Shown here one piece after another: positions 2,088 to 36,734 of a stretch of DNA of 64,000 nt. The notes below the pieces were generated by a model, which ran no database searches, was not told where the DNA came from, and was given only the letters and a program-made list of their open reading frames with translations. Position 1 is the stretch's first letter. Each line of letters starts with the position of its first letter. The position numbers and the translations under genes were made by a program. This DNA comes from Oscillospiraceae bacterium (GTDB taxonomy: Bacteria; Bacillota; Clostridia; Oscillospirales; Oscillospiraceae), in contig JAILFJ010000034.1 in NCBI GenBank assembly GCA_024697625.1, positions 1-64,000 of the forward strand, written 5' to 3'.

Positions 2088-4859
2088 ATGATGGTCAACA
2101 ACAGAATTCTGAAGAAACTGATTTCGTTGCTTCTTGCGACTGTGATGCTCGGATCTTCCTGTGGCGAAGCCGTTGCGGATCTGGTGCAGCTTCCCGATGA
2201 TTTGAACCGGGTAGAAGAGGAAGTGTTTTATCATGATATTTCTCTATATGAGGTGGAGATCCCCTATGGGGTTGAGTCTATCGACTCAAAGGCCTTCGCC
2301 TACAGTTCTGTGAAAAGGATCAGAATACCGGACTCCGTGATCTGGATTGCTGACGATGCCTTTGAGGGAGTGAGCGACCTTACCATCTGCTGCAGTGAAG
2401 ATTCCTGTGCAAAGGAGCTTGCGGACAGTCGGGACGACTATGTGTGGGAACAACTGGGCGGACAGTATCATACTGAATCACTGGAAGAGCTAATCAACGA
2501 AATTCTGGAAGGCGTGGACGAGGCACCGTTTATATCGGAAAGTGAACTTGATCTGTCGCATCTGTCGGAAGAAGGCATTACGGATCCGGAGACCCTGAAA
2601 GCGATCCGGGAATACAATGAACTTCAGGATGAGTTGGGCATTCTTGTTGCTGAGTACCGGGAAGATACCGATGGGATTATTTCGGCACTGACGGAAAGCG
2701 CGGGGATTATCGAATCGGTGAATGTTGAAGAGACGGAGCAGGGCTTTGTCCTGAGCACTGAGAACGGAAGCTTCAGCGTGACAGGAGACGGATTTGACGC
2801 GCTTGACGAAGACTTTGAAGTACTGTCATCTGCGGCAACAGAAGACGGCAGTCTGTTCATGGAAATACAGAGCGGTTCCGCGGTCCTCTACCTGACCCTG
2901 AACAGCTCCGGAATCATGCTGAGCAGGAGCATGCATGTTACGGCTTCCAGTCTTGACTATTCTGCAGCTTCGGTAATGGATGTACTGGGCAAGATCGATT
3001 TCAGCTGGCTGATCTCGACTGCACAGTATCTGGCGGAAACAATCAATTCTGCCGTATCCGACTTTAGTAAATGGGTCAATGAAGGAATAAAGAAGCTTGA
3101 AAAAGAGATTCCTTTAATGGAAGCCAAACTCAAAAAGCTGCAGATTCAGGGAGCGGTAGACCCGGATGGCCCATTTCATGACGCTCGCGTCAAGGCAAAC
3201 TCTGAGCTGGTTTTTGCACGGGGATCAATTAAAACGCTCAAAGGTGTCCGTGCCAAAATCGCACGCTTTACCATACCGGAGACCTGCAGGGAAATTTTGG
3301 ACAACACAGCCAAAATCAGAACATTAAGAGGAATCTCCGGTCACGGTCATCCGACGGAGACGGAGAAGACAGAGGACGCTCAGGCATTAGTGGATCAGTT
3401 AACCGCACTTCTCAATACGTCGTACATTCTGGTAACCTGGGATCTGGTTGACGGCACTGCTTCCATTATAATGGATATCTCGGCTGTTGCCGGGTTTGTT
3501 GCCGGTGTATGCGCGGGCGGACCGGTGGGAGCTGTTACGGCTGTTGCTGCCACGGCGGCTGTAAAGAAAGTCGCTGTGGGAGCTATCCGTAAGCTTGTGT
3601 TGGCGGTAATAGGCAATATTGTGCGCAATGTTGCTACAAATGTTGCGTATGACAAAACGGTCGCAGCGGATGACAGACTGCATTCCTGTATGATCAGCGG
3701 CACGGTGAAAGACAAGGAGACGGGCAATCCGCTGAAAAACGTAACGGTCAGCTGCGAAACCGGTCAGACAGTGACGAATGCCCAGGGGCAGTATTCTCTT
3801 TCTGTGCCGACAGAGATCAGGGCGTATACTCTGACCTTTGCTGCAAGAGGCTATGTCACACAGAAGCTCACGGCCAATGTGAACGGGCGACTCTCCCTGA
3901 CGCTGGATCCGGTAAGTATGGAGCAGGCGGTAACGACCGTAACCGGCACTGTAACGGACGCGGAAAGCGGAGCCGCGCTTCAGGGAGTTCTGGTAACAAT
4001 CGGCGATGAGTCCGCGTTCACTGACGCAGACGGTAAATACACGCTGACCGTACCTTTCGGCGAATATACGGCGCTGTTCTCACTGGACGGTTATCATACG
4101 CAGGCGGAGGAACTGACGCTGGATAAGCCGGGAACAGTGCAGTGCAATATAGAGCTTCAAAAAGGCGCGGATCTGCCGGAGCCGGTGGTGACAAGAGATG
4201 TCATTACCTTCGGACGCTATGAGCAGGACGGAAATCTGTCAAACGGGCCCGAAGCAATCGAGTGGCTTGTCCTTGCAAAGCAGGGAAGCAGGGCTCTTGT
4301 CGTTAGCAGATATGCGCTGGAATCAAAGGCATACAATGATGAGCGTGTTGATATCACCTGGGAGACCTGCACCCTGCGCAGCTGGCTCAACAGCACCTTC
4401 CTGAACACAGCTTTCACGGCTTCGGAACAGAGCAGAATCCCGACAGTGACTGTCGTTAACAATGATAATACCAAATTCGGCACGGAGGGGGGTAACAACA
4501 CACAGGACAAGGTGTTCCTCCTGAGCATATCCGAGGTGGAGCAGTATTTCAGTTCAGAGAGCAAACGGGTTTATGACAGCGAAGACCCGGATGATTACTG
4601 GGTGTATTGGCCGGACAGAATGTGCGCTCCGACCGCATATGTTTATACGCAATGGGGTTGCACGTCCTGGGAAGATTGGCTAAATAGTTGGTATGAGGGA
4701 AATACCGAAATATGGGGCTGCTGGTGGTGGCTCCGGTCGCCCGGTGGCGATCAGGATAGTGCCGCGGGTGTCGACGGCGGCGGCTACCTCGACGACTTCG
4801 GCGACTACGGCGACGGCGGCGGCGTGCGCCCTGCTTTGTGGATAAATCTTGCATCTTGA
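2088..4859 (+). CDS. DGR target protein: signal peptide, LRR_5 fragment, two carboxypeptidase-regulatory-like beta domains, C-terminal DUF6273/CLec-like domain containing the variable repeat
   Basis: Signal peptide MMVNNRILKKLISLLLATVMLGSSCGEAVA; ISGTVKDKETGNPLKNV and VTGTVTDAESGAALQGV repeats; VITFGRYEQDGNLSNGPEAIEWLVL...TWETCTLRSWLNSTFL is DUF6273-like; ends CWWWLRSPGG...GGVRPALWINLAS, homologous to the TR. Confidence 0.9.
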   Translation: MMVNNRILKKLISLLLATVMLGSSCGEAVADLVQLPDDLNRVEEEVFYHDISLYEVEIPYGVESIDSKAFAYSSVKRIRIPDSVIWIADDAFEGVSDLTICCSEDSCAKELADSRDDYVWEQLGGQYHTESLEELINEILEGVDEAPFISESELDLSHLSEEGITDPETLKAIREYNELQDELGILVAEYREDTDGIISALTESAGIIESVNVEETEQGFVLSTENGSFSVTGDGFDALDEDFEVLSSAATEDGSLFMEIQSGSAVLYLTLNSSGIMLSRSMHVTASSLDYSAASVMDVLGKIDFSWLISTAQYLAETINSAVSDFSKWVNEGIKKLEKEIPLMEAKLKKLQIQGAVDPDGPFHDARVKANSELVFARGSIKTLKGVRAKIARFTIPETCREILDNTAKIRTLRGISGHGHPTETEKTEDAQALVDQLTALLNTSYILVTWDLVDGTASIIMDISAVAGFVAGVCAGGPVGAVTAVAATAAVKKVAVGAIRKLVLAVIGNIVRNVATNVAYDKTVAADDRLHSCMISGTVKDKETGNPLKNVTVSCETGQTVTNAQGQYSLSVPTEIRAYTLTFAARGYVTQKLTANVNGRLSLTLDPVSMEQAVTTVTGTVTDAESGAALQGVLVTIGDESAFTDADGKYTLTVPFGEYTALFSLDGYHTQAEELTLDKPGTVQCNIELQKGADLPEPVVTRDVITFGRYEQDGNLSNGPEAIEWLVLAKQGSRALVVSRYALESKAYNDERVDITWETCTLRSWLNSTFLNTAFTASEQSRIPTVTVVNNDNTKFGTEGGNNTQDKVFLLSISEVEQYFSSESKRVYDSEDPDDYWVYWPDRMCAPTAYVYTQWGCTSWEDWLNSWYEGNTEIWGCWWWLRSPGGDQDSAAGVDGGGYLDDFGDYGDGGGVRPALWINLAS
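4718..4836 (+). repeat. DGR variable repeat (VR), 119 bp, 3' end of target CDS
   Basis: 28 bp identical 5' block (ctgctggtggtggctccggtcgcccggt) and 19 bp identical 3' block (ggcggcgtgcgccctgctt) shared with the TR; all substitutions between them fall at TR adenines. Confidence 0.95.
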
Positions 4860-5006
4860 TTCTTCAAATCTGTCATCGTCCACTTTAATCATCTAAAAAA
4901 GAAAAATTAACTCAAGGAAAGAATGTACAGCGAGGGCGGGAAGGAAAACAAATGCCGCCGTAAGGCGGCCGAAAAAATTTTGAAAAATCGAGGGTTGTTA
5001 AATTGT

Positions 5007-5420
5007 ATGGAAAAAAGGCAGAGCGAGCTGACTGTAATCACTAAGACAAAGGAACTGAGTTCCTATATAATTACGATAACACAGAGATCGCCGAAACAGT
5101 TTCGATTTACTTTCATCTCCAAAATGCAGAATCTGTGCCTTGACTGTATCGAGTGCCTTTATCGAGCCAATGACACCTACGTGGCGTTTGGAGACCAAAA
5201 AGCATGGGACACTCGGATAGACTATCAACATAAGGCGATGACCAGCCTAAAGCTTCTGGGTTATATCTCGCTCCTGGCAATGGAGAACAAGTGCATTCTC
5301 CCAAAACAGTATGAGCAGATCTCACGCATGTCTTCGGAATGCCGTAATCTGCTCGGCGGGTGGATGAACAGCGACAGAAGAAGATTTCAGCCTCGGCCGG
5401 GCTGCAGTCCGGGGATCTGA
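5007..5420 (+). CDS. avd: DGR accessory variability determinant, Avd-like four-helix bundle protein
   Basis: ELSSYIITITQRSPKQFRFTFISKMQNLCLDCIECLYRAND...YQHKAMTSLKLLGYISLLAMENKCILPKQYEQISRMSSECRNLLGGWMNSDRR resembles Avd/four-helix-bundle proteins; lies between target and TR. ATG 5007 preferred over the ORF-track start 4923. Confidence 0.85.
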   Translation: MEKRQSELTVITKTKELSSYIITITQRSPKQFRFTFISKMQNLCLDCIECLYRANDTYVAFGDQKAWDTRIDYQHKAMTSLKLLGYISLLAMENKCILPKQYEQISRMSSECRNLLGGWMNSDRRRFQPRPGCSPGI

Positions 5421-5433
5421 TTATAATACTGTC

Positions 5434-5558
5434 CTGCTGGTGGTGGCTCCGGTCGCCCGGTAACAATCAGAATAATGCCGCGAATGTCAACAACGACGGC
5501 AACCTCAACAACAACGGCAACAACGTCGACAACAACAACGGCGGCGTGCGCCCTGCTT
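5434..5558 (+). repeat. DGR template repeat (TR), 125 bp, rich in AAC/AAT codons
   Basis: 35 adenines, 16 AAY triplets in the central block; flanks identical to VR; non-coding position between avd and RT. Confidence 0.95.
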
Positions 5559-5764
5559 CGCTCCCATATGCCTGAAACCTGTCCGTAAGTACGGCGGTCT
5601 GTGCAGGGGAGCAAAGGAATCAGATTCCCTCCCGTTTATGCGGGAAAATACATGTCGGCAGATGGAACTTACGCTGCGGCTTTCGTTCCATAAGGTGAGT
5701 CAGGGAACTGTGCACGGTTTCCGCTCACCCTGCCGATGCGTTTTTCATTGGCTACGGTAAAAAG
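5559..5764 (+). ncRNA. Structured TR-RT spacer, probable part of the DGR template RNA
   Basis: Perfect helices: TCGGCAG 5655-5661 / CTGCCGA 5730-5736 enclosing TGGAAC 5663-5668 / GTTCCA 5685-5690 and GGTGAG 5694-5699 / CTCACC 5724-5729; also GGAAT/ATTCC 5617-5629 and TCCCG/CGGGA 5630-5645. Confidence 0.6.
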
Positions 5765-6838
5765 ATGACAATGTATTTCGAGAAAATCTACAATTTCCAG
5801 AACCTGTACCAGGCACACAGGGCTGCAAGGCTTGGAAAACAGCATACCCGCGAGGTTATCGAATTCGAGATGGATCTGGCAGGAAATCTGACCAGACTCT
5901 CCGATACTATTCGGGAAAAGAACTATCGAATGACAGACTACTACTCATTCTACGTCCGCGACCCGAAACTGAGGGAGATTCATGCGCTACATTATCCGGA
6001 TCGTGTTGTTCAGCACTGTATCTGCGATGAAGTACTGTGTCCGGTTCTGGATCCGAAGCTCATATACGACAATGCGTCATGTAGAACCGGTAAAGGCACT
6101 CATTTTGCGATTGACAGAGTTAGCGGATTCCTACGAGAATTCTATCGCCGAAACGGTACGGGGGGTTATTTCCTGAAGTGTGATATTCGGAAGTATTTTG
6201 ATAATGTGGATCATGATATCCTGAAATCGAGGCTTCGCCGGGTGTTCAGAGAACCGGAAATGATGGCGCTTCTGGAACAGGTTATCGACAGTTATGAAAC
6301 AGCACCGGGAAAAGGTCTGCCCTTGGGAAATCAGACCAGTCAGTGGTTTGCAATCCTGTATCTGGATTCACTTGATCGACTCGTGAAGGAGCGGCTACAG
6401 ATACGGTATTATTCCCGATACATGGACGACTGTATTCTGATCCACAGCGACAGAGATGTTCTTCGGAATTGTCTTAACAGAATGAATGAGCTGGTTCAGG
6501 AAAAACTGAAACTTGAGTTCAATGAGAAGACACAGATCTTTCCTCTGAGAAACGGAGTAAATTATCTGGGATGGCATTTTTATCTCACCGAGACAGGTAA
6601 GGTAATCCGAAAAGTCAGAAATCAGTCTAAGAGAAGATACAGAAACAAACTCAGGCTGATGCAGTATAAATATGCGGAAGGCAGTATGGAGCTGGACAGT
6701 ATAAAACAGGTTCTGACCAGCTATCACGCACATCTTTCACACGGTCACACCTATAAACTGCAGGAGCGGACACTTCAGGGATTTGTCCTCGCGAAGAGCA
6801 GGGATACTTGCCAGAAAGTGTTGTGTACTATCAATTGA
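5765..6838 (+). CDS. DGR reverse transcriptase
   Basis: Catalytic YMDD (YSRYMDDCILI), DGR-type GLPLGNQTSQWFA motif (SQ), KCDIRKYFDNVDHDIL, NYLGWHF; directly downstream of TR. Confidence 0.95.
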   Translation: MTMYFEKIYNFQNLYQAHRAARLGKQHTREVIEFEMDLAGNLTRLSDTIREKNYRMTDYYSFYVRDPKLREIHALHYPDRVVQHCICDEVLCPVLDPKLIYDNASCRTGKGTHFAIDRVSGFLREFYRRNGTGGYFLKCDIRKYFDNVDHDILKSRLRRVFREPEMMALLEQVIDSYETAPGKGLPLGNQTSQWFAILYLDSLDRLVKERLQIRYYSRYMDDCILIHSDRDVLRNCLNRMNELVQEKLKLEFNEKTQIFPLRNGVNYLGWHFYLTETGKVIRKVRNQSKRRYRNKLRLMQYKYAEGSMELDSIKQVLTSYHAHLSHGHTYKLQERTLQGFVLAKSRDTCQKVLCTIN

Positions 6839-6975
6839 GAAAGATTCCGAATCAGGGAGCATGTTATGCAATTTACACTTGTTTTCCTGCATGACATGGA
6901 ATAGAATAGAATAGGTGTCACAGAGACAATAGGCATTACAACTCAAACAATAGAAAAAGAAAGGAAGGAAGAACT

Positions 6976-7548
6976 ATGAAAAAACTGCTTGCAATGCTCC
7001 TGTTGTTATCTCTCGTGCTCAGCCTTGGTGTCACGGCTTTCGCGGAAGAGGGGAAGACAGAGACCAAAACCTGGAAGGACGAGAAGGGGGAGACGGTCAC
7101 AGAGGTCTATGACGAGGACGGGCGTCTGATTCACAGGGAGGAGCCCTATTACAAGAACGGAAAGAAATCCGGAACCCTGTGCTACGACTCGATCGTCTGG
7201 TGCAGCTGGTCCAATGACAAGTACACGACACAGGCCGCATGGACACTTCCGGTTCTGAAGCCGGATACGGAACTCAACCGATGCCTCTCTTATACGCTGA
7301 ATATGGCGTATTTCAAGATCGCGGACAGCAGAGAGCTCGGGACCCAGAACATATATGTGCGCGAGGACGGCATTTTCCGGAGAGCCGACTATCTGGATAT
7401 GGACGAGCTGGAGACTTTCTATGATATGGATTTCAAGTATGACAGTCCGAAAAAGGTGGACGGATTTGCGATCCAGCCCTACAGATACGTGAGCTCGGGC
7501 GACTTCAGCCTTGCCTGCGCGCTGACCGATGTCTATTATCTGAAGTGA
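6976..7548 (+). CDS. Small secreted protein of unknown function
   Basis: Signal peptide MKKLLAMLLLLSLVLSLGVTAFA; SD aaggaaggaag upstream. Confidence 0.7.
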   Translation: MKKLLAMLLLLSLVLSLGVTAFAEEGKTETKTWKDEKGETVTEVYDEDGRLIHREEPYYKNGKKSGTLCYDSIVWCSWSNDKYTTQAAWTLPVLKPDTELNRCLSYTLNMAYFKIADSRELGTQNIYVREDGIFRRADYLDMDELETFYDMDFKYDSPKKVDGFAIQPYRYVSSGDFSLACALTDVYYLK

Positions 7549-32492: not shown

Positions 32493-32569
32493 TGGCACGC
32501 GATAAGGGATTCGAACCCCTGACCTTCTGGTCCGTAGCCAGACGCTCTATCCAGCTGAGCTAATCGCGC
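32493..32569 (-). tRNA. tRNA-Arg (anticodon ACG), CCA encoded
   Basis: Reverse strand gcgcgattagctcagctggatagagcgtctggctACGgaccagaaggtcaggggttcgaatcccttatcgcgtgCCA; complete cloverleaf. Confidence 0.96.
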
Positions 32570-36525: not shown

Positions 36526-36531
36526 GCAGCT

Positions 36532-36638
36532 GTCTTCAGGGCAGGGTGTGATTCCCGACCGGCGGTACAGTCCGCGAGCCGAAAGGCATGAACCGGTGTG
36601 ATTCCGGTACCGACAGTAGAGTCTGGATGGAAGAAGAC
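36532..36638 (+). ncRNA. FMN riboswitch (RFN element)
   Basis: gtcttcagggcagggtgtgattcccgaccggcggtacagtccgcgagcc...gtgtgattccggtaccgacagtagagtctggatggaagaagac; closing helix GTCTTC/GAAGAC. Confidence 0.97.
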
Positions 36639-36734
36639 GGATAGAGAGTGTTTCAGATCCGCCCGTTCCTCTGCCCCATATTTTGTGCCTGAAGATATGT
36701 ATCTTCGGGCGATTCTTTTTTTGGAGGGGAAAAC

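Follow-up and report, generated by a model that had tools for sequence, protein, structure and literature searches.

A conserved spacer RNA between template repeat and reverse transcriptase in an Avd-type DGR and its probable part in cDNA initiation

The locus described here raises the question of whether the segment that separates the template repeat (TR) of a DGR from its reverse transcriptase (RT) gene, at positions 5559-5764, is a structured RNA with a part in cDNA synthesis. Positions are those of the window, the whole 64,000-nucleotide stretch of an Oscillospiraceae bacterium contig that was analysed. In BPP-1, the corresponding spacer folds and recruits bRT-Avd, and an internal adenine of the spacer serves as the primer for cDNA in the 3' portion of TR (PMC12875486). 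A first-pass annotation of the window had drawn a multibranch fold for this segment by eye and had proposed that it forms a functional core, comparable to that of BPP-1 and specific to this DGR family.

The DGR locus

On the plus strand of the window, a variable-protein gene is followed in turn by an avd-like gene, TR, the spacer and the RT gene. The variable-protein gene (2088-4859) has a C-terminal match to DUF6273 (E 9.3e-30), and its 3' end holds the variable repeat (VR, 4720-4836). The avd-like gene (5007-5420) encodes a putative DGR accessory protein that matches PHROG 3206, "Avd protein of DGR," with E 4e-24 and Pfam bAvd PF22296 with E 2.3e-10 and 41.4 bits, a score barely above the cut-off of 40. 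The RT gene (5765-6838) encodes a YMDD enzyme with an RVT_1 match (E 6.9e-19). The closest solved structures to this RT, PDB 8ub7 and its series (E 9.3e-43), are annotated "Reverse transcriptase" and are taken by us to be the BPP-1 RT. The adenine-rich TR (5436-5558) aligns to VR at 78%. In a wider TR-VR alignment, 20 of 34 TR adenines are substituted in VR, and the remaining differences are a single gap of 6 nt and six mismatches at other bases, most of them at the 5' edge. The locus is an Avd-type DGR, as it combines a bAvd-like protein, a DGR-type RT and an adenine-biased TR-VR pair whose differences fall almost only at TR adenines.

The same genome carries a second DGR on contig C38 (L002; G000:C38:58590-59964), with an RT 52% identical to the window RT, a TR of its own that matches the window TR at 74%, and a spacer RNA of the same kind that has diverged (52 bits). 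More TR-like stretches occur in this genome. The one at G000:C87:9880-9998, a full-length match at 72%, could represent a distant VR, and the shorter matches on C75, C56, C11, C166 and C88 may be common coding motifs.

Fold and covariation of the spacer RNA

The minimum free energy (MFE) fold of 5559-5764 has an energy of -80.8 kcal/mol, compared with -62.4 +/- 4.6 kcal/mol for dinucleotide shuffles (z -4.0), and none of 200 shuffles was as stable. As a tiled control, 12 segments of 206 nt over 4700-7105 gave z scores from -1.35 to +0.93, while 5559-5764 scored -3.67 in the same script. The conserved spacer (Sp) RNA, as delimited by covariation and by the covariance model R1, spans about 5557-5737 on the plus strand, and the final 27 nt ahead of the RT ATG (5738-5764) lie outside the model. 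The window RNA is itself a training sequence of R1, so its score of 173.7 bits is a self-match.

All helices lie on the plus strand. The first, P1, pairs GCTCCC (5560-5565) with GGGAGC (5607-5612) and encloses P2; across 11 loci, double changes were found in all eight modelled P1 pairs. The tip of the P2 hairpin (CCGTA 5583-5587, TACGG 5590-5594) has double changes in 3 of 3 modelled pairs, with 94% of cells paired. Directly after the P1 3' strand comes an AAAGG motif (5613-5617), in which AAGG is invariant among 17-18 aligned RNAs of the three-way-junction type found here and of the Rfam family RT-14. Hairpin P3a (GGAAT 5616-5620, ATTCC 5624-5628) is seen in the MFE fold, and its GG and CC are near invariant, so that covariation is neutral, neither for nor against this hairpin. 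Hairpin P3b (TCCCG 5630-5634, CGGGA 5641-5645) has double changes in five of six pairs and 98% of cells paired, and directly 3' of it lies the A-rich linker AAAATACAT. The RNA ends in a three-way junction. Its closing helix (TCGGCAG 5655-5661, CTGCCGA 5730-5736) has double changes in 6 of 8 modelled pairs (96.5% of cells paired). Junction hairpin 1 (ATGGAAC 5662-5668, GTTCCAT 5685-5691) contains an internal loop, UUAC/UUUC, and junction hairpin 2 (GGTGAGT 5694-5700, GCTCACC 5723-5729) is a group-specific insertion with double changes in 6 of 7 basal pairs.

RT homologues, 57-65% identical to the window RT, were found in five other genomes with the same RNA directly upstream. Covariation was compared with two controls, shuffles and pairing partners slid along the alignment. 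In a plain MAFFT alignment of the six spacers, which is independent of the model, 32 of 58 predicted pairs showed compensatory double changes, and 92% of cells paired as against 39-51% with partners slid by 1-3 columns; no shuffle attained any of these measures. The R1 model identified five more members at 34-52 bits (L002, L008, L009, L023 and L072). In the alignment of all 11 loci, which was fitted to R1, double changes were present in 48 of 58 pairs. These amounted to 137 double-change cells, compared with 45.8 +/- 5.6 after shuffling and at most 29 after sliding, and 91% of cells were paired, compared with at most 50% after sliding. The spacer RNA is therefore a real, evolutionarily conserved fold. 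Every helix of the multibranch fold in the first-pass annotation is in place in the MFE fold (P1 was absent from its list), and the covariation over homologous DGR loci, which it had put forward as the way to check that fold, bears it out.

These data also decide a reading in which only the overall stability is real, with the fold itself arising incidentally from GC-rich sequence and common ancestry. The RNA has a GC content of 0.54 and the loci are related, which would suit such an origin. However, dinucleotide shuffles and tiled segments are far less stable, and the compensatory changes stand well over both the shuffled and the slid controls, so that this reading is already refuted by covariation and its probability is negligible. 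A protein-coding spacer was likewise rejected: one frame is almost open, but the homologue RNAs, 172-190 nt long, differ by non-multiples of three and their changes are compensatory. When 398 genomes of the phylum were scanned with R1, the window genome alone matched, and a 24-bit R1 match at L073, with no DGR RT nearby, was attributed to chance.

The RNA might instead be a cis-regulatory leader of the RT gene (a riboswitch, an attenuator or a translational control element) without a role in cDNA synthesis. In favour of this reading, the RNA sits immediately before the RT ATG, and in four members (the window, L003, L004 and L006) a T-run occurs a few bases past the terminal stem. However, at two loci the RNA adjoins TR and other genes intervene before RT. 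In L009 a 581-aa ORF without a Pfam match (1008-2753) lies between the RNA and an RT gene that is split over two frames, and in L023 a MutS domain I gene (871-1446) occupies this place. Because the RNA stays at TR when RT is apart, a leader function is unlikely. In addition, P1 abuts the end of TR, which would be needless for a leader, and the counterpart segment of BPP-1 has a known priming role. A pattern scan of the plus strand of the spacer region also returned no terminator-like site, on which ground a terminator was rejected as well. Taken together, we consider a leader very improbable. Such RNAs could serve as markers by which DGRs can be found even with RT and TR apart.

A solo spacer RNA was also observed at L072 (1501-1675, genome G783). 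It has a TR-like 3' end, and a large repetitive gene comes after it. A search of that genome for a DGR RT gave no match, and L072 is probably a relic.

Relation to Rfam families and the BPP-1 spacer

The closest Rfam family to the window RNA is RT-14 (RF02921), which scores 26.0 bits over the full model and does not reach its gathering threshold of 48.1. RT-14 was present in 11 of 398 genomes of the phylum, and in 12 of 12 retrieved loci an RT homologous to the window RT adjoins the RNA. Where the flanking sequence of RT-14 loci was inspected, a TR-like, adenine-rich repeat lies on the side of the RNA opposite RT, and VRs were located nearby for most loci. With a homologous RT on one side, TR-like repeats on the other and VRs nearby, these RT-14 copies are DGR spacer RNAs, and gene context thus ties this RNA family to DGRs.

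The window RNA and RT-14 have the same order of elements, and both contain the motifs GCC-GA, GUGC, AAAGG, UCC and the A-rich linker. The core common to the window RNA and the RT-14 spacers consists of P1, P2, AAAGG...CC, P3, the A-rich linker and the terminal stem. They differ in the terminal domain. RT-14 has a single, unbranched terminal stem, whose position is taken in the window RNA by junction hairpin 1. A further hairpin (5694-5729), absent from the RT-14 model, is inserted in the 3' strand of this stem and gives rise to the three-way junction, with covariation in both hairpins. Thus, the family specificity claimed in the first-pass annotation holds for the second junction hairpin, which marks the window group, and not for the core.

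A tree of 47 RTs was compared with these RNA types. A strongly supported split in this tree separates the RTs of RT-14 loci and BPP-1 from those of three-way-junction and RT-2 loci, so that the RT-14 RTs and the window RT fall on different sides. In the best tree the ten three-way-junction loci fall together as one group, which has weak branch support (52/3) and is recovered in 54% of bootstrap trees. RNA type tracks the RT tree, the ten loci requiring one change compared with a shuffled mean of 9.3. Their hosts are Bacillota and one Actinomycetota genome. The Rfam family RT-2 (RF03077) gave no match to the window RNA; it matches other DGR TR-RT spacers, all below its threshold, and the RTs that go with these spacers fall on the same side of the split as the window RT. 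The window RNA is a DGR spacer RNA of a known kind. Within this kind, ten RT-linked loci, the window's included, make up a group of their own that carries an extra junction hairpin and lies below Rfam thresholds.

Upstream of one RT in G513:C59 lie two RT-14 RNAs (L055 and L060) spaced by about 590 nt, an arrangement that suggests that one RT serves two templates. A 20-bit RT-14 match at L048 on contig C176 lies in protein-coding-like DNA with no DGR sequence around it and was attributed to chance. Viral contigs searched by pattern for the AAAGG core gave no match.

The BPP-1 spacer scores 104.7 bits against Rfam Phage_DGR (RF03022), and Phage_DGR is the BPP-1 spacer. This family (gathering threshold 50 bits) did not match the window RNA up to E 1 or 5, and R1 did not match BPP-1. 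The case for equating the two RNAs is therefore built on position, overall plan and the relationship of their RTs. Both are TR-RT spacers of Avd-type DGRs with related RTs, and both have a hairpin near TR, a short hairpin followed by an A-rich linker, and a terminal stem. The window RNA differs from BPP-1 in its added junction hairpin and in a P1 that lies entirely 3' of TR. A core model pooled from three-way-junction and RT-14 RNAs and aimed at BPP-1 was dropped, as no single register would align P1 throughout.

P1 and the start of cDNA synthesis

Strong covariation, the DGR locus and the published role of the BPP-1 spacer together back the earlier suggestion of a functional structured RNA 3' of TR, the function itself being argued from analogy. 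It is thus very likely that the window RNA is an Avd-type DGR spacer RNA acting in cDNA initiation, and the analysis supplies a covariation-backed structure for such an RNA in a group outside the Bordetella model and below recognition by Rfam.

The position of P1 bears on where the template would end. First, TR-VR identity, read by eye, ends 0-3 nt ahead of the P1 5' strand in all 15 loci with a clear cis VR (the window, L003, L005, L006, L008, nine RT-14-type loci and the phage locus L091). The same TR-VR comparison found no VR for L004, L059, L002, L023 and L009 and a weaker match for L007. Secondly, AAAGG or a slightly altered form of it comes after the P1 3' strand. Third, in 34 DGR spacers the pairing of P1 in cis beats that in trans (mean -10.1 vs -8.3 kcal/mol; 0 of 10000 permutations as low), in a test with hand-chosen motif anchors and modest single-locus ranks. 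A clear P1 is missing in L092 and L096. Lastly, when Sp is numbered from 5559, the P1 3' strand takes up Sp 49-54 and A5613-A5615 fall at Sp 55-57. The priming adenine of BPP-1 is Sp A56. By comparison with that position, P1 is a reasonable candidate for the primer-template duplex, a reading towards which we lean, and A5613-A5615 would include the cDNA-priming adenosine.

A rather doubtful alternative is that P1 is an ordinary architectural stem, with the actual primer-template duplex arising from different parts of TR and Sp, as a candidate intra-TR pairing suggests for BPP-1. This pairing, of ATCACC in TR with GGTGGT at Sp 49-54, would put the duplex within the annotated TR. However, the P1 3' strand likewise occupies Sp 49-54, right ahead of the adenosines, and P1 starts where the copied sequence stops.

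If P1 does act as the primer-template duplex, the following steps can be proposed by analogy with BPP-1. The spacer part of the TR-containing transcript would fold and bind the RT-Avd complex. P1, immediately 3' of the template, would serve as the duplex, with the 3' end of TR entering the RT active site beside it, and an adenosine just 3' of P1 (A5613-A5615) would give the hydroxyl that starts the mutagenic cDNA of TR. The elements P2, AAAGG...CC and P3 and the terminal three-way junction may hold the protein and fix the start of copying. Protein binding and priming by the window RNA are predictions from the BPP-1 system. They turn the question of the template end into a prediction at single-nucleotide resolution, with copying starting beside P1 and priming at A5613-A5615.

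A broader proposal, which we regard as evenly balanced, has three parts. A P1-type helix, formed by a post-template segment and a segment before the adenosine-rich motif, would set the template 3' boundary in the majority of DGRs that have a TR-RT spacer; the third terminal-domain helix of the window group would have coevolved with RT; and RT-14 and RT-2 would be branches of one DGR initiation RNA. If true, two families labelled merely as RT-associated RNAs in the Rfam library searched would be one and the same kind of DGR initiation RNA.

Hairpins were also observed downstream of VR. In the window, a GC-rich hairpin (GCCGCC-GTAA-GGCGGC) lies at 4954-4969. In other DGR loci post-VR hairpins, with mostly GATA-like loops, lie 32-39 nt after VR in the RT-14 type and 67-135 nt after it in the window group, and we take them to resemble the target hairpin known from BPP-1. 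Elsewhere in the window, an FMN riboswitch (115 bits) was identified at 36528-36642 and a tRNA gene on the minus strand at 32496-32569.
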